Positions 22,398 to 41,293 of a stretch of 46,135 bases of DNA are shown piece after piece. This DNA comes from a virus, in IMG/VR virus record IMGVR_UViG_3300037628_000123, positions 1 to 46,135 of that record. One strand, given 5' to 3'. How positions within the stretch are numbered: the stretch's first letter is position 1; every line of letters starts with the position of its first letter. The position numbers and the translations under genes were made by a program. The notes beneath the pieces were generated by a model. The model was not told where the DNA came from, made no database searches, and saw only the letters and a list, made by a program, of their open reading frames with translations.

Positions 22398-22460
22398 AAT
22401 ATATGTATCCTATATGTAGTATTGTATATAAAGTAAGTATATGTAATATGTATAGTTACT

Positions 22461-22554
22461 GTGTTGCTAGGTCGGTAGTGACCTAGCGAGATAGACTCTA
22501 GCCTAGAAAGAGCGCGACTCTTTTAGTGACTAAGCCAAAGCCTATCTCGATAGG
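22461..22554 (-). ncRNA. Structured leader or noncoding RNA candidate
   Basis: The 227-base gap before the SSB-like gene has no ORF but many strong stems. GCTAGGTC (22466-22473) pairs with GACCTAGC (22480-22487). Directly adjacent, GAGATAG (22488-22494) pairs with CTATCTC (22542-22548), enclosing AAAGAG-CTCTTT (22507-22523) and TTAG-CTAA (22523-22533; it shares T22523 with the previous stem). There is no T-tract, so it is not a terminator, and no T-loop, so it is not a tRNA. Likely a 5' leader element of the downstream gene. Confidence 0.5.
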
Positions 22555-22624
22555 TAGTATACTATTTGCTACGGTACTGTGTTAGCTGACCTGTGCGTGC
22601 GGTATACTAGCGCTGATAGAGCAG

Positions 22625-25059: not shown

Positions 25060-26177
25060 TTCTCTGCTCCTTTATCTACCTGATTCTGTACTAAGTCATA
25101 GAAATCCAGTACAAAATCATAGTTATCATTATCTGCTTCTAACTTAGCCAGTATTTCCGTAGTCAACGGTTTAGTAAGGTTCTCGGTAGTCAGTGTACAT
25201 AAACCTAAGTACTCACACTCTCGAAAGAAATCAAAGCAGGACTCGCCGTGCATAGGATACACCTGATAGCTTTCGTATATATCTACTAGCTGTGTATCAA
25301 TAAGTAATTCCTGTAACCAAAGCGCCCGCTGTAGTAAGGACTTCTCAAATGGAAGCTCTACATAGCTAAAGCTTTTTGTCTCATATACTAGATATAAAAC
25401 TTCATAACTGTTTAAGCCAGGGAATAGTATATCTAATACCACACTGTAACCTAATGCCTGACCGCTGTTCTTAAACTGTGCTGACTGAGCTGTACCGGAG
25501 GATGTTTTATTCTCTAGTACTAATACCTCACCGCTAACCTTGTGTCTAAGTACTACATCAACAAACCCACGGTATTTATATCCGTTAGGTAATATAATCT
25601 GAAAGGCTAGCTCTACTGCTGGCTTACCTTTATAGTATACTAGCTCGTACTCTTCTAAGAATCCGTTAGCTAAGAGGGTAGAGAACTTTTGTACTGCATA
25701 CAACGCTAACCAGAATGACTTCTTCTGTCTAGGTGTTTCATCAAGCAGGTCTACGTCCCACTCTAGGAAGGTATCTAGTATTACCTGTGCTTCGTTCTTA
25801 CCTTCCAGTGCTGACTGTACTCCTACACCTACAGCTTTACCGTAAGCAAAGGTAACACCCTGCTCTAGCTCTGCTATATCATTAGAAGATATCTGCTCAG
25901 CATTAAGGCGGTACAGTTGGTACTTACGAGGGCATTTATGTAAGGTAGTACGACTGGAGTGGGATAGAAGCTTTAAGCGGGGGTCTGTCTCACCCTCTGG
26001 TAGATTAACTACTTCAATTAAGGTTTTAGCTTCTACAGTTTCGTCAAGAAATGATTTCCCTACTTCTACCTCGCAGTCTAAGAGAGACTGAGGACTAAGC
26101 TCAGCAGGTATAGAGCTGGGTGCTTTCTTAGCTGCTTGTCTAGCTAGTATCTCTTGTATGCGGGAAGGTAGTGCCAT
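25056..26177 (-). CDS. PD-(D/E)XK superfamily nuclease (RecB/Cas4-like exonuclease)
   Basis: A 373-aa protein. The N-terminal RecB-nuclease signature LHKCPRKYQLYRLN (about 77-90) is followed by the catalytic core: GFVDVVL (Asp207), VLENKTS (Glu222, Lys224) and the QxxxY-type GQALGYS. These match the PD-(D/E)XK exonucleases of the RecB/AddB type. Cys residues near the C-terminus (CFDFFRECEYLGLC) could bind an iron-sulfur cluster or zinc, as in Cas4/AddB relatives. It would resect DNA ends to feed the Sak4-like annealing protein or help degrade host DNA. It starts in a TAATG overlap with the 49-aa gene. Confidence 0.85.
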   Translation of the reverse strand: MALPSRIQEILARQAAKKAPSSIPAELSPQSLLDCEVEVGKSFLDETVEAKTLIEVVNLPEGETDPRLKLLSHSSRTTLHKCPRKYQLYRLNAEQISSNDIAELEQGVTFAYGKAVGVGVQSALEGKNEAQVILDTFLEWDVDLLDETPRQKKSFWLALYAVQKFSTLLANGFLEEYELVYYKGKPAVELAFQIILPNGYKYRGFVDVVLRHKVSGEVLVLENKTSSGTAQSAQFKNSGQALGYSVVLDILFPGLNSYEVLYLVYETKSFSYVELPFEKSLLQRALWLQELLIDTQLVDIYESYQVYPMHGESCFDFFRECEYLGLCTLTTENLTKPLTTEILAKLEADNDNYDFVLDFYDLVQNQVDKGAEK

Positions 26178-26326
26178 TATAACTGTCCATAAGTTACAGA
26201 GTTGTTTAAGTAGTTAATACTTACTACCATGAAGCGCTCGTCGCCTACTGTGTGAGTGTTACCTACCTCCGGTTTAACATCAAACTGCGCGCAGTACATA
26301 CTAACTGTTAGTGGTAATGTATCCAT
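26177..26326 (-). CDS. 49-aa early protein fitted by double TAATG coupling
   Basis: The 148-base gap between two genes holds a 49-aa frame, MDTLPLTVSMYCAQFDV to YGQL. Its ATG (26324-26326) overlaps the upstream TAA and its TAA (26177-26179) overlaps the next ATG, both as TAATG. Exact coupling at both ends is strong evidence that it is translated. A mid-gene VVSINYLNNSVTYG suggests a small beta fold. Function unknown. Confidence 0.75.
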   Translation of the reverse strand: MDTLPLTVSMYCAQFDVKPEVGNTHTVGDERFMVVSINYLNNSVTYGQL

Positions 26327-26751
26327 TAGTTTATTGCCTCTTCTAATATATGTCTAGCTGTATAGTATACAACCAGATTCTTTAAATAATCAACCTTAGC
26401 GAAGTACTCTTCTGTACTCATACCGTCTACTTGCACTAAACTCACAGGGTAGAATACAGTCTGTACTAAAGCACCTACTTCATAACCATGAAAGATAGCA
26501 GGTATAGCCAGCTTACTGAATCTGGTAGTATCTGGTATCTCTATCGGAGAGAGGTAAGCATACAACGCTCGCGCTCCTTCCATGTAATTTGTATAGCAAC
26601 TACCGCCGCCGTTCTCACTACCTTTAGCTTTATTATAAAGTCTTATATAGGTCTCTAGTGGTGTGGTGTTAGTTGCTTCGCTAAGAGGGGAGGTGTTAGT
26701 ACTCGCTCTTAGCTTAGCTATTCTTGCAGCCAGAGGTGTCAGCTCAGTCAT
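26326..26751 (-). CDS. Early protein of unknown function
   Basis: A 141-aa protein with a Thr/Ser-rich N-terminus, then a helical domain (TYIRLYNKAKG, YTNYMEGARALYAYL) and a C-terminal stretch that alternates aromatic and hydrophobic residues (VYYTARHILEEAI). A GGAG site lies before the ATG, which overlaps the next gene by 8 bases. No domain recognised. It lies between the 67-aa and 49-aa genes in the tightly packed early operon. Confidence 0.6.
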   Translation of the reverse strand: MTELTPLAARIAKLRASTNTSPLSEATNTTPLETYIRLYNKAKGSENGGGSCYTNYMEGARALYAYLSPIEIPDTTRFSKLAIPAIFHGYEVGALVQTVFYPVSLVQVDGMSTEEYFAKVDYLKNLVVYYTARHILEEAIN

Positions 26752-26947
26752 CAGACTCCGCCTGTTTAACTAACCACTGTTGAAAGTTAGGTCTATCATG
26801 ACCGTATACACGAGCGTCATAACCTAAGTTAATAGCATCCTCAACTAACTTAACTATATCTTGTGAGAGAGTTATCTGTAATGTAGTTTGTACACTTTCT
26901 AATGTAGCGGCTAACTTATTGACTCTTTTATTCATAGTTTTTTCCAT
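26744..26947 (-). CDS. Small early protein, unknown
   Basis: 67 aa from ATG 26947 (MEKTMNKRVNK), chosen over an ATG nine codons upstream because AGGAG lies 9 bases before this start. The protein is a single amphipathic helix region (LAATLESVQTTLQITLSQDIVKLVEDAI) and an aromatic tail (RPNFQQWLVKQ). No family recognised. Confidence 0.55.
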   Translation of the reverse strand: MEKTMNKRVNKLAATLESVQTTLQITLSQDIVKLVEDAINLGYDARVYGHDRPNFQQWLVKQAESDD

Positions 26948-26963
26948 TAGGTTTTCTCCTACC

Positions 26964-27236
26964 TTATAAATCACTCACTGTCATTTTACTTATAGCTTTC
27001 TTAGGCTTACGTTTCAGAGCAGTAGTAGCTATACTAGTACTAGTCTGGTGCTTAAGTCCACGAACTAAGATAGAGCAATCTTCCTCACTAAGGATAGTGA
27101 CTATATCTGGGTCAGCTTTAAGGTTACGGTGAATGTCTCGTAAGAGAGTAGCGATGTTAGGAGTAGTCTCTAATAGACCTGCTTCTAACTGCGCTAGCTT
27201 CTCTCTTACCTCGAATGCTTGATTATCATTACTCAT
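26964..27236 (-). CDS. Small early protein, unknown
   Basis: A 90-aa protein with an acidic helical N-terminus (FEVREKLAQLEAGLLE), an Ile/Leu core and a Lys-rich C-terminus (LKRKPKKAISKMT). AGGAG precedes the ATG; the ATG overlaps the upstream TGA as ATGA. The basic tail might contact DNA; nothing more can be said. Confidence 0.55.
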   Translation of the reverse strand: MSNDNQAFEVREKLAQLEAGLLETTPNIATLLRDIHRNLKADPDIVTILSEEDCSILVRGLKHQTSTSIATTALKRKPKKAISKMTVSDL

Positions 27237-27787: not shown

Positions 27788-27852
27788 ATTAATTGTTACC
27801 TGTACTCTATTAGATTGATTTATATAAACATACTAGGTTAGTGTGCTTATAT

Positions 27853-27924
27853 AAAAAACCTAGCTATCTCGGTTACGCGCAGTACCTTATAAAGGTACCG
27901 CTTTGATTACGGGAGATAGCTAGG
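27853..27924 (-). terminator. Strong terminator with a 12-bp stem and inner hairpin
   Basis: On the leftward transcript CCTAGCTATCTC pairs with GAGATAGCTAGG (27913-27924 with 27859-27870), followed by TTTTTT (27858-27853). Inside sits a second perfect stem, GTACCTT-loop-AAGGTAC (27882-27898). It lies directly after the 248-aa gene and should end its transcript. Confidence 0.82.
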
Positions 27925-27943
27925 GAAAACTTACATGTAACTA

Positions 27944-34273: not shown

Positions 34274-34309
34274 TAGATGTATCCTGTTAGTTAGTATTCA
34301 ATAAATAAA

Positions 34310-34373
34310 TTGGCATTAATTGGCATTCCTTGCCATTATACCAAAATGCCAATTGAAAAAAAGGGTATTTGTC
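34310..34373. repeat. Left arm of a long imperfect inverted repeat with TTGGCAT boxes
   Basis: Contains TTGGCAT at 34310 and 34320, a TTGCCAT variant at 34330, TACCAAAATGCCAA (34339-34352) and AAGGGTATTTGTC (34361-34373). The last two recur inverted in the right arm as perfect 14-bp and 13-bp matches. Confidence 0.75.
34335..34343 (-). promoter_or_regulatory. Extended -10 promoter (TGGTATAAT) for the 33956-34273 operon
   Basis: On the minus strand TGGTATAAT fits the TGnTATAAT extended -10 form, which works without a good -35. It lies about 65 bases upstream of the ATG at 34273 and is flanked on both sides by TTGGCAT/ATGCCAA boxes, the layout of an operator-controlled promoter. Confidence 0.6.
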
Positions 34374-34627
34374 ACCCTCTGAATATATATTCTTCCCTCT
34401 CTCACCTAGCTACTGCCAATATCACCGCCTGCTAAGCCTAGATATAAGGGTCTTAGTCTACTAGTAGCTAAAGGGTATTAGTAGTGGATTGATGTATGTT
34501 TAATAGGGTGTATATTATTTAATACTTAATACTTTATTACACTCTTACATACATTCACTAATAGATACTTACAGCTAACTACTCTAATACTGATACTGTT
34601 AGATACAGACAAACACCAAAATACATG

Positions 34628-34692
34628 GACAAATACCCTTCAAAAACACCTTTGGCATTTTGGTACTTTGGCAAATTGGTATTTTATGCCAA
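34628..34692. repeat. Right arm of the long imperfect inverted repeat
   Basis: Contains GACAAATACCCTT (34628-34640), TTGGCATTTTGGTA (34652-34665), TTGGCAA (34668) and ATGCCAA (34686). It is the diverged reverse complement of 34310-34373; the place of the left arm's TATAAT is TACTTT here, so the promoter is not kept. Confidence 0.75.
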
Positions 34693-34725
34693 ATTACCTG
34701 AACTACTTATTAGATTGTAGATAGC

Positions 34726-34748
34726 AAAAAGTCTCAGTTAAGAGACTT
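34726..34748 (-). terminator. Rho-independent terminator after the 274-aa gene
   Basis: On the minus strand AAGTCTC (34748-34742) pairs with GAGACTT (34735-34729) around a six-base loop and is followed by TTT. It lies 31 bases beyond the stop at 34779. Confidence 0.8.
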
Positions 34749-34778
34749 GCTTTGCAGCTGCTTAGGTTTACCGGTTTA

Positions 34779-37491: not shown

Positions 37492-39075
37492 ATGTCGAAG
37501 CCTACAGAGCCTACCGAAGGTATGGATTATAATAAGGAGGACTTAATAAACTCCTTAGGTGCAGCTGACATAGAGAATAAGACTCAGGCTGTAGCTCCTA
37601 CAGAGAATATAAAGCAGCTAGGAGCTAGCTCAGATGAGATACAAGCTCTCGCTAAGCAGGACTTAGATTTCTTAGCTGCTCTTATAATGCCTCTTATATT
37701 TACTTACTGCTTCCCTTCTGTATTTCAGTCGGTGTGGACGTGGTTATTAAGTTATGTGAATCAAGAGCGTACATTCCCTCAGTTAGCTCTTGGCTTACCT
37801 CGCGGCTTCGGTAAGACTACATTGATGAAAATCTTTTTAGTCTACTGTATCTTATTTACTAAACGTAAGTTCATTCTAGTAATAGGCTCTACAGCTAAGA
37901 AGGCAGAAGCTATATTAGCGGATGTAATTAAAATGCTGGAGGAGCCTAATATAGTAGCTACCTTTGGTGACTGGAAGTTAGGTGTAACTAAAGATACACA
38001 AGCTATTAAGCAGTTTGGCTTTCGTGGTAGAGATATCTCCTTTGTAGCAGCTGGTGCGGAGACTGATGTTCGTGGTCTTAACTTAGGTAATGAGCGCCCC
38101 GATGTTATTCTTATGGATGATATACAATCTAAGGAGTGCGCTAAGTCAGAAGTACAGTCTGAAACTCTTATCGACTGGATGACTTCTACCTTAATGAAAG
38201 CTAAAGACCCTAAAGGCTGTATGTTTATTTTTATAGCTAACATGTACCCTACTAAGCTTAGTATACTACGCAAACTAAAGACTAACCCTACGTGGCTTAA
38301 GTTTATAGCTGGCGGTATCTTAGCAGACGGTACTAGCCTATGGGAAGAGCTACAACCTATTAAACAACTTACAGCTGAGTTTGAAAATGATTTAGCTATG
38401 GGTAGACCGGAAGTATTTTATTCTGAGGTTCTTAACGATGAGAATATACAAGCTAATAATCTTATTGACCTTTCTAAGCTGCCTGATGTTCCTTATACTG
38501 AAGGCGACATTGCAGCTGGTAACTTCATCATTATTGACCCGGCTACGGATAAGCTTGGCTCAGATGAAGTCTCGGTAGGTTACTTCGAAGTACACGACGC
38601 ATCTCCTATAATGATGAAGCTAGAGGAAGGTAGATTTAGCCCGGGGGATACTATAAGAAAGGCGTTAACTTATGCGCTTACTTATAACTGTAGGTTAATA
38701 GCTGTAGAAGCTAATGCTTACCAATACTCCCTACTCTACTGGTTTGATTTTATCTGTGAGCAGATGGGTATACAGGGTATAGAAGCTGTACCTATCTACT
38801 CAGGTGCTCGCTCTAAGAACTCTCGTATACTAGATATGTTTAAAGGCTACGCTGCTGGTGAGATATACTGTCACCAAGACTGTAAGCTAGAGCTGCACTT
38901 ACAGATAGTACAGTTTAACCCTATGCGCAGAGACAACACTGACGGACTGCTAGATTTAATGACTTACGCCCCTAGAGTTGTACAGGAGTTTGGTGAGTTC
39001 GTAGTCGCATCTAATATTATTGAATCCCAAGAGTTTGAAGGTATAGAAGTACCTGACTACAATTCAAGCTTCTAG
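37492..39075 (+). CDS. terL: Terminase large subunit
   Basis: A 527-aa packaging motor. Walker A GLPRGFGKTT (101-110) and Walker B VILMDD (205-210) form the ATPase; the C-terminal RNase H-like nuclease has the first Asp in IIIDPATD (Asp349), a strand with LIAVEANAY and a later DGLLDLMTYAP (Asp484, Asp488). ATPase coupling motif IFIAN(M)YP lies between. It pumps DNA through the portal and cuts concatemers. The N-terminus has SLGAADIE (21-28), matching SLGANDIE in terS. GGAG precedes the ATG at 10-base spacing. Confidence 0.95.
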   Translation: MSKPTEPTEGMDYNKEDLINSLGAADIENKTQAVAPTENIKQLGASSDEIQALAKQDLDFLAALIMPLIFTYCFPSVFQSVWTWLLSYVNQERTFPQLALGLPRGFGKTTLMKIFLVYCILFTKRKFILVIGSTAKKAEAILADVIKMLEEPNIVATFGDWKLGVTKDTQAIKQFGFRGRDISFVAAGAETDVRGLNLGNERPDVILMDDIQSKECAKSEVQSETLIDWMTSTLMKAKDPKGCMFIFIANMYPTKLSILRKLKTNPTWLKFIAGGILADGTSLWEELQPIKQLTAEFENDLAMGRPEVFYSEVLNDENIQANNLIDLSKLPDVPYTEGDIAAGNFIIIDPATDKLGSDEVSVGYFEVHDASPIMMKLEEGRFSPGDTIRKALTYALTYNCRLIAVEANAYQYSLLYWFDFICEQMGIQGIEAVPIYSGARSKNSRILDMFKGYAAGEIYCHQDCKLELHLQIVQFNPMRRDNTDGLLDLMTYAPRVVQEFGEFVVASNIIESQEFEGIEVPDYNSSF

Positions 39076-39099
39076 CTAACAGGGATTTCGCCGCGTATG

Positions 39100-39239
39100 A
39101 GTTGACCGTGCGTAGCAGCTGTGGGGTATAGCAGGGTTCCCTTGTCATAGAAGTTTCGTGAGAGACTAGCGAAGCGGCTCGACCTAAACTACTTGACAGA
39201 GGGTGCGCGCCCCTTAAGCTTGCTTAGCGGTCAGCTAAG
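39100..39239 (+). ncRNA. Structured RNA candidate between terL and portal
   Basis: The 220-base gap 39076-39295 has no ORF. Nested stems: AGTTGACC (39100-39107) with GGTCAGCT (39229-39236, one G-U pair); AGC-AGCT (39114-39120) with AGCT-t-GCT (39217-39224 with one unpaired T at 39221); GGGG (39123-39126) with CCCC (39210-39213); CCCT-TGTCA (39139-39147) with TGACA-g-AGGG (39194-39203); and an apical AGTTTC-GTGA-GAGACT hairpin with a GNRA loop. An alternative hairpin CTTAGC-GGTCA-GCTAAG (39223-39239) competes with the outer stem. It may be a leader of the portal gene, a processed RNA or a packaging element. Confidence 0.6.
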
Positions 39240-39295
39240 GAGCATAGAAAGACCGAACCTATTACATCTTATTTTAAATTACAAGGACTAATCTA

Positions 39296-41293
39296 ATGGC
39301 AGCATCAACAGTAGTACCTTTAAAGCCCGCCCAGAAAGCTGCTTTTCTTAGTTACTATAAAAACATACAATCTAACCAGCAAGGTGTTATGGGTCTGCGT
39401 AGGTCTAGATTCCAGCTTATAGATAAGAATTATCAGCGTGAGTTAGACCGTACCCAAGAGAATCAAAGAGCTAAGGCAGCTAACACTAACGGAGATCCTA
39501 CTAGATTTCAAAACATGGTAGTTCCTGTAGTTATGCCACAGGTAGAAGCAGCTGTAGTTCATCAGACCTCAGTCTTTCTAACTGGTAGCCCTATATTTGG
39601 TGTAGTAGCTGGACCTGCTTTTATAGATGAAGCCTTACAGATGGAGTCAGTCTTAGAAGCTAACAGTATTCGCGGCGGCTGGGCTAGACAGCTTATGATG
39701 TCTTTCCGTGACGGAGCTAAGTATAACTTCATGCCTATTGAAGCTTCTTGGGGTAGAGAGGTTACTTGGGCAGTAGAGACTAGTGTACAGAAGAACCTAA
39801 AGGAAGGTACACCTGTAGAGGTTATCTGGACAGGTAATACACTTACCAGACTTGACCCTTATAATACATTCTATGATAATAAGGTAGCTGCTGCTGATGT
39901 ATACCGTTATGGAGAGTACGCAGGCTATACGCAGTTCTTCTCTCGTATACGTCTTAAGTCTTTTATAGCAGAGCTACCTGATAAGATTATATCTAGTATA
40001 GTACCTGCCTTTGAGTCAGGTAAGACTTCTGCCCCTAGTGGCGGCGGCGAGACTTTATCTTACTTTGTACCTGATGTTAACCCGGCTATTTTAGACGATA
40101 ACTTTGCTTTAGGTGAAACTGACTGGTTAGCTTGGGCTAATTTAGCAGGCGATAAGAAATCTAAGATTGACTATAAAGACAGTTATGAAGTAACTACCTT
40201 ATACTGTAAAATCTTACCTTCTGAGTTTGGCTTAGTTGTACCTAACAGCAATACACCTACTATATATAAGATTATACTGGTTAATCACGAGCATATTATA
40301 TACGCAGAACTTCAGACTAACGCTCACAACTGGTTACCTATCTTAATAGGCGCACCGCAAGAGGACGGCTTAGATACACAGACTAAGTCTCTAGCTGAGA
40401 ACGGGATACCTTTCCAGCAGCTAGCTACCTCTTATATGACTTCTATCATAGAGAGTCGCCGCCGTGCTATTAATGACCGCGTACTATTTGACCCTTCTCG
40501 TATAACCGCTGCTCATATTAACTCACCTAATGCATCAGCTAAGATACCTGTACGTCCGGCAGCTTATGGTAAGAAGATATCAGACGCTGTCTATCAGTTC
40601 CCTTTTAGAGCTGACCAGGACGCAGGAGCTATGCAGCAGATACAAGGTATAGTAGCTCTAGCTAATGTTACTAATGGACAGAACCAAGCACAACAAGGTC
40701 AGTTCACTAAAGGTAACAGAACCTTAGAAGAGTTTGATACTATCATGCAGAACGCTAACGGTAGAGACCAGTTAGTTTCTATCCTAATAGAGCATCAGAC
40801 ATTTATGCCTATGAAGCAGATATTTAAGCTTAATATACTCCAGTTCCAAGGAGGTACTACAGTATATAATCGCGATAAGGATGTAGCTGTAGAGATAGAC
40901 CCAGTTAAGCTAAGATTAGCAGTGCTTGACTTCCGTGTATCTGACGGATTAACTCCTGCTAGTAAGTTACTTAACTCGGAAGCGTTTGGTGCAGCTATGC
41001 AGGCACTAGGTCAGAACCCTCAGTTAGGAGCAGGTTATAACATGGCTCCTATGTTCTCTTACTTTATGAAAACTCAAGGTGCTAAGATTAGTGAGTTTGA
41101 GAAGTCTCCTGAGCAAGTAGCTTACGAGCAAGCAGTAACTCAATGGCAGCAGATAGCTCAGTTTGCTATAGAGAATGAACAGCCATTTACACAACCCCAG
41201 CCGTTACCTGAGCAGTTCGGTTACGACCCAGCAGGTAATACACCCTCAACCAAACCAACAGAGCCAGCCTCTAACACACAAGGAACAGCCTAA
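39296..41293 (+). CDS. Portal protein
   Basis: A 665-aa protein directly after terL in packaging order. N-terminus RRSRFQLIDKNYQRELDRT and the block MVVPVVMPQVEAAVVHQTSVFLTG match the opening of podovirus portal proteins, where the helix-strand wing meets the adaptor. The middle has long helices and the conserved-looking DRVLFDPSRI; the C-terminus is Gln/Pro-rich and likely disordered. A dodecamer of this protein forms the DNA channel and binds TerL and the adaptor. AAGGAC precedes the ATG. One GATC lies at 39494. The stop overlaps the next ATG as TAATG. Confidence 0.85.
   Translation: MAASTVVPLKPAQKAAFLSYYKNIQSNQQGVMGLRRSRFQLIDKNYQRELDRTQENQRAKAANTNGDPTRFQNMVVPVVMPQVEAAVVHQTSVFLTGSPIFGVVAGPAFIDEALQMESVLEANSIRGGWARQLMMSFRDGAKYNFMPIEASWGREVTWAVETSVQKNLKEGTPVEVIWTGNTLTRLDPYNTFYDNKVAAADVYRYGEYAGYTQFFSRIRLKSFIAELPDKIISSIVPAFESGKTSAPSGGGETLSYFVPDVNPAILDDNFALGETDWLAWANLAGDKKSKIDYKDSYEVTTLYCKILPSEFGLVVPNSNTPTIYKIILVNHEHIIYAELQTNAHNWLPILIGAPQEDGLDTQTKSLAENGIPFQQLATSYMTSIIESRRRAINDRVLFDPSRITAAHINSPNASAKIPVRPAAYGKKISDAVYQFPFRADQDAGAMQQIQGIVALANVTNGQNQAQQGQFTKGNRTLEEFDTIMQNANGRDQLVSILIEHQTFMPMKQIFKLNILQFQGGTTVYNRDKDVAVEIDPVKLRLAVLDFRVSDGLTPASKLLNSEAFGAAMQALGQNPQLGAGYNMAPMFSYFMKTQGAKISEFEKSPEQVAYEQAVTQWQQIAQFAIENEQPFTQPQPLPEQFGYDPAGNTPSTKPTEPASNTQGTA

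Follow-up and report, generated by a model that had tools for sequence, protein, structure and literature searches.

A conserved RNA structure beside the portal gene of a podovirus-like phage and its relatives

The terL-portal locus

The stretch of DNA analysed here (the window, 46,135 bases) is an IMG/VR virus record from an uncultured podovirus-like phage. By terminase large subunit (TerL), its nearest named relative is Aeromonas phage P5 (37% identical), and further named relatives are the Pseudomonas 119X/PaP2 group (~32%) and Polaromonas phage Tiera (28.5%). The phage group carries a family A DNA polymerase, and the MAG labels of matching genomes disagree with one another as to the host. 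The terL gene of the window lies at 37492-39075 (plus strand; PHROG 38, E 2.5e-47) and the portal gene at 39296-41293 (plus strand; PHROG 15554, E 7.4e-65). An earlier note on this DNA had pointed to the 220 bases between them as free of open reading frames and as the site of a nested RNA structure. The first of these claims holds, since no credible ORF was found in the 220-nt gap.

No terminator belonging to the element was found, and no convincing promoter; the single match to a promoter, 9/12 at 39035-39063, compares with a chance expectation of 0.8. The ribosome-binding site of the portal gene is not part of the fold and sits in an A/T-rich linker. Among the proteins checked, none was recognised as a phage RNA polymerase, and therefore the host polymerase presumably makes the transcript.

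Folding of the intergenic RNA

The segment 39100-39239, for which the earlier note proposed a structure of about 140 nt, folds at -56.6 kcal/mol (z -2.94), dinucleotide shuffles giving -45.06 ± 3.93 and 1 of 200 of them being as stable. When the unstructured flanks are included (39070-39300, the interval that the note had suggested folding against shuffled controls), z is just -0.69; folding energy by itself is therefore a weak argument and leaves the matter open. The proposed fold is present at the proposed place, and its extent had been underestimated, the closed domain in the folded gap covering 39082-39254 (~173 nt, plus strand; outer pair probability 0.98).

The domain is closed by an outer stem, P1, whose 5' strand (39082-39094) pairs with 39242-39254 at probabilities of 0.98-0.99. 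Stems resembling P1 are seen by eye in relatives L053 (GGAAU-UCCGG/CCGGACA-UUCC) and L033 (GGGAU-UCCGG/CCGGACA-UCCC). Inside it, helix P2 joins 39100-39109 (AGTTGACCG and the next base) to 39227-39236 (CGGTCAGCT) with pair probability 0.9-1.0. Folding of the gap places the 5' strands of P3 and P4 at 39114-39127 and their 3' strands at 39209-39224, and the 3' side of P3 carries the motif TAAGCT (39215-39220), which is the most conserved 3' sequence of the element. The pairing model continues with helices P5 and P6, formed by 39139-39156 (CCCTTGTCATAGAAGTTT) and 39186-39203 (AAACTACTTGACAGAGGG). The apical part (39157-39185) consists of tandem G.A mismatches, P7, a bulge and the cap GCGAAGC (39169-39175). 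The tip had been read as a GNRA hairpin and is instead a GAA triloop of the GNA type within this cap. All of these 5' strands and motifs are on the plus strand. The overall predicted shape is a rod, in which the outer stem P1 is followed by P2-P7 stacked via internal loops and by the GCGNAGC cap.

A second, competing state had also been suggested, in which the descending outer strand joins a local hairpin at 39223-39239. This hairpin has a pair probability of 0.00, and a fold constrained to contain it is less stable by 7.4 kcal/mol (-60.0 versus -67.4). A riboswitch or cis-regulatory leader was considered and rejected on this lack of a competing structure, together with the lack of a constant downstream gene.

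Covariation and family members

Relatives were collected by TerL and portal scans, giving ~70 loci. A structure-blind MAFFT alignment of the arm in 8 sequences contains 83.2% standard pairs, with changes to both partners at 11 of 24 pairs. Its covariation score is 0.321 against 0.123 ± 0.025 for shuffled alignments (reached in 0 of 500), and pairing with slid partners gives at most 0.113. Three covariance models were built, R1 on the arm (8 sequences), R2 on the core (14 sequences) and R3 (21 sequences). With E-values that come from a shortened calibration, R2 matches the window at 39098-39238 (6e-20) and finds the held-out members L106 (5.8e-12), L006 (6e-11), L082 (3.6e-13), L036 (7e-4), L257 (7.9e-15), L372 (6.5e-15) and L311 (5e-4). 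L024 and L036 are weak with R1 and clear with R2, L024 being part of the R2 seed. R3 adds L309 and L313.

The outcome that the earlier note had set against a structure, unpaired changes in the stems with no covariation, is not what the relatives present. In the model-based alignment of 21 sequences, 32 of the 40 modelled pairs vary at both partners with pairing retained (125 such cells), including all six in P2, all four in P4 and 16 of 18 in helices P5 and P6. Covariation reaches 0.387, a value that none of 500 shuffles attained (0.167 ± 0.012), with slid partners at or below 0.145; this alignment is fitted to the structure, and the independent support comes from the MAFFT-based results and the held-out matches. 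Pairwise identity among the aligned copies has a median of 43% and a range of 28-96%. Beyond the window, covariance models recover this fold from 24 distinct sequences, which come mainly from metagenome contigs; one of them, a weaker match, is in the cultured Aeromonas phage P5. Covariation is decisive here and, together with the shared fold, shows on comparative grounds that the element is a real RNA structure under selection for its pairing. The nested structure claimed for the gap is thus confirmed.

In Aeromonas phage P5, the R3 match is on the minus strand at 25343-25226, with E 3.1e-4 when that genome is searched alone and 0.0024 in a 365-kb search. It is located at the end of the portal gene (25328-27190) and before the next gene (25215). 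This copy has a GCGUAGC cap and an arm containing GUCA. TAAGC is missing where it would be expected, and the copy itself folds with a z of just -1.44; the genomic site therefore carries much of the weight in judging it a probable member of the family.

In 19 of 22 copies the sense strand gives the more stable fold of the two strands, which points to an RNA of the head-gene strand. G.U versus A.C counts are 13 versus 7 (A5) and 48 versus 47 (A6), and alone they do not decide between RNA and DNA. The bias in folding bears on the idea that the inverted repeats matter as DNA, for example as a site where packaging starts or as a replication or recombination site. The terminase genes are nearby, and GCGNAGC also gives very stable mini-hairpins in DNA. 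A DNA-level site is nevertheless the least probable of the explanations weighed, given the better folding of the sense strand, the retention of internal loops and asymmetric bulges, and the existence of close relatives with the same terminase type that lack the element.

Conserved motifs

Several short motifs are kept while the helices diverge. TAAGC is found in 16 of 21 sequences, and four of the six TAAGCT positions are invariant columns (T39215, A39216, C39219 and T39220). The cap GCGNAGC is present in 18 of 21 and GTCA at the base of the arm in 19 of 21. A bulged C between helices P5 and P6, tandem G.A pairs under P7 and internal loops of the GNA/GNA type recur by eye. That unpaired motifs are fixed points to recognition. 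A UAA/GAN motif in P3 was tried as a description of the TAAGC region and not retained; it is clear in L098, L053 and L011, but TAAGC is paired or bulged differently in L031/L032, L094, L082 and L106. The claim is therefore limited to the TAAGCT sequence.

In L002 and L372, extended apical helices replace the part bearing the GCGNAGC cap, with one more helix resting on internal loops of the G.A type. This suggests that the apex tolerates insertions that preserve the G.A module.

Position relative to the portal gene

Among relatives, the terL-portal gap is often empty and 10-46 nt long, or it contains small genes; in several, 215-280 nt of non-coding sequence lie there and share recognisable motifs. 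In L009, L010, L011, L015, L021, L074, L088, L257 and L372, this gap is a hot spot at which optional genes occur, among them peptidase-like genes ending in HIE.QPKR and small holin-like genes. Whole-genome cmsearch found one copy of the element per carrier genome, always close to the portal. In the clade of the window it is mostly in front of the portal, sometimes one accessory gene away, and in more distant carriers it is behind; the switch between front and behind requires 3-4 changes on the TerL tree. The copy follows a small gene in L051 and L032, precedes a peptidase-like gene in L011, and lies after such a gene and before the portal in L257 and L372. It is directly behind the portal in L106 and L022 and one gene further on in L006.

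The gene downstream of the element is thus the portal, the peptidase, the gene after the portal or another head gene. Control of portal translation, which the earlier note had listed among its ideas, is therefore unlikely. A leader controlling the portal fits poorly with this variable neighbour, with a ribosome-binding site left free outside the fold and with the lack of a second state.

A cis-acting role of a broader kind is the main rival to the RNA-gene reading given below, and we regard it as possible though rather unlikely. As a rigid domain in the mRNA of the head operon, the element would serve as a landing or blocking site for a nuclease, or as an insulator that separates portal translation from that of the adjoining genes and so keeps the portal scarce, and could do so from either side of the portal. 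Such a role agrees with its constant place in the head operon near the portal, on one side or the other, with its having neither promoter nor terminator, and with its spacing, the model match starting 13-60 nt past the upstream stop codon and ending 45-90 nt before the next start codon. An RNA gene that moved freely would also have no need to stay near the portal in every carrier, and this proximity could reflect a cis or portal-linked role. However, a cleavage or insulator hairpin needs no conserved loops, fixed cap or TAAGCT; the L011 copy precedes the peptidase gene and the L006 copy is one gene past the portal; and many close relatives manage without the element. RNase III processing sites of the T7 type are likewise structured RNAs between genes of a late operon. 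Those sites are simple stems, whereas the element has conserved internal loops, a cap and single-stranded motifs, and occurs once per genome.

Presence and absence among relatives

Carriers cluster on a TerL tree of 96 rows, on which presence and absence change 13 times, or 11 times without the unproven remote candidates; the first count took in L049, L318 and L319 and the second left them out. In the first count, 69 of the 96 members have no recognised copy around the portal. Absence means no match to the present models, and very divergent copies could be missed. The L313 copy was found by cmsearch after being missed by the initial genome search, and absences were re-checked by whole-genome cmsearch, which found no copy in eight near-complete relatives (G003, G005, G007, G009, G018, G020, G021 and G023). 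The element is likewise undetectable in many phages whose TerL is ~60-78% identical.

A first pattern scan returned just known members and apparent chance matches in other contigs. A pattern scan of IMG/VR yielded 79 contigs, and among the 72 new ones searched the sole true member was L257, from the same phage group. G008, G010 and G011 have a structured region near the portal that the models do not match, possibly that of remote members. In more distant phages, L049 (6930-7160; the same phage as L317), L318 (8800-9016) and L319 (9065-9320) have highly structured gaps after the portal or one gene later. These gaps have a similar rod shape and are found by no model; they may be remote members and are uncounted. 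No protein family tracks the carriers. Co-evolution with the portal was also examined, and the portal columns that best separate carriers from non-carriers fail an independent-pairs test.

The patchy distribution, with its 11-13 changes and its setting in a hot spot for accessory genes, is what a remnant of a mobile element, ribozyme or intron might leave. This origin is very unlikely, because the element has no associated enzyme, matches no ribozyme or intron in Rfam, occurs in one copy only, is never found away from the portal, splits no gene and has a structure under selection. A self-splicing intron or ribozyme was rejected in the same way, as there is no Rfam match and the element stands between intact genes.

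Comparison with known phage RNAs

No Rfam family reaches its gathering score in the window, no pRNA appears around the element up to E 10, and 12 loci around members give nothing up to E 1. The literature searched holds no description of it, with a 2017 study of 224 candidate RNAs covered through those families that entered Rfam. The earlier statement that no such element was known in this position accordingly stands as far as Rfam and this literature reach. We give about even odds to the reading that this domain (39082-39254) belongs to a new family of discrete RNA genes; about 25 members of the family are recognised.

To our knowledge, the pRNA of phi29 is the only packaging RNA known. It is a structured RNA encoded by the phage that keeps its shape while its sequence diverges (PMC12670572). 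The element resembles this RNA (Rfam RF00044) in size, in the conservation of shape over sequence, and in sharing a genome with portal and packaging ATPase genes. In contrast to phi29 pRNA, it is unbranched, with no three-way junction (R1 has 0 branch points, and R2 and R3 are single nested rods), has no Rfam match, belongs to a different phage group and is absent from many close relatives.

A packaging RNA would belong to the portal-terminase motor or take part in assembling the portal, and would be comparable to phi29 pRNA but unrelated to it. The single copy adjoining terL or the portal in every carrier, the distant Aeromonas phage P5 included, agrees with such a part. At the base of the long arm, most copies show by eye an AGG..CC sequence that is complementary to itself, part of which is paired within the arm in L309-type members. 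It could permit RNA-RNA contacts, of the kind by which complementary loops of phi29 pRNA interlock into a ring. The missing three-way junction and pRNA match weigh against it, as do the failure of the portal columns in independent pairs and the absence of the element from the eight near-complete relatives and from many shorter ones with closely homologous TerL and portal. With so many absences among closely related motors, an essential packaging RNA does not fit, and a packaging function as a whole appears improbable. A second, independent packaging or portal-assembly RNA, unrelated to that of phi29, dispensable and lost many times, is similarly doubtful.

The GOLLD and ROOL RNAs are structured phage noncoding RNAs that were discovered by covariation, and GOLLD expression rises in lysis (PMC12286853). 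The element is likewise a structured phage RNA found through covariation and with no assigned function. GOLLD is often longer than 800 nt, and tRNA islands are frequent neighbours of both RNAs, whereas the element is ~175 nt, lies beside the portal and has no Rfam match. Phage T4 encodes two small stable RNAs, RNA C and RNA D, that have no assigned function. The element is similarly small and phage-encoded, but it differs from them in place and phage, the comparison having been made via Rfam alone. Strongly covarying phage RNAs are rare.

Proposed mode of action

Judged from the aligned sequences, the element is a conserved RNA fold, present in single copy, linked to the portal and optional among relatives. 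The reading we favour, because it leaves the least unexplained, and to which we give about an even chance, is that of an optional RNA gene, transcribed as part of the late operon and acting as RNA or RNP. It takes up the free RNA that the earlier note had listed among its ideas. The element would be carried on the late head-gene transcript and then released, or used, as a stable folded domain. It may act in trans during late infection, as RNA or as an RNA-protein particle, with the TAAGCT internal loop and the GNA cap as candidate points of recognition. As such an RNA gene it would be a useful but dispensable addition to the phage, not a switch for the portal.

About 25 members, a fold model and patchy presence set up a comparison of carriers with non-carriers. 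With a probable cultured member in Aeromonas phage P5, these make the role directly testable, whether in packaging, in head-gene expression or toward the host.

Other non-coding regions of the window

Other structured gaps of the window do not match the models and resemble terminators and repeats. On the minus strand, the non-coding gap 22398-22624 has a long hairpin (CGAGATAGGCTTTGGCTTAG.../...CTAGAGTCTATCTCG) followed by a second one, with no model match. Two very strong tandem hairpins at 27788-27943 (z about -6 to -7 on either strand) are probably inter-operon terminators. A non-coding region of 505 bases at 34274-34778 contains many TTGGCA/TGCCAA repeats in both orientations and is possibly a replication origin or regulatory region.
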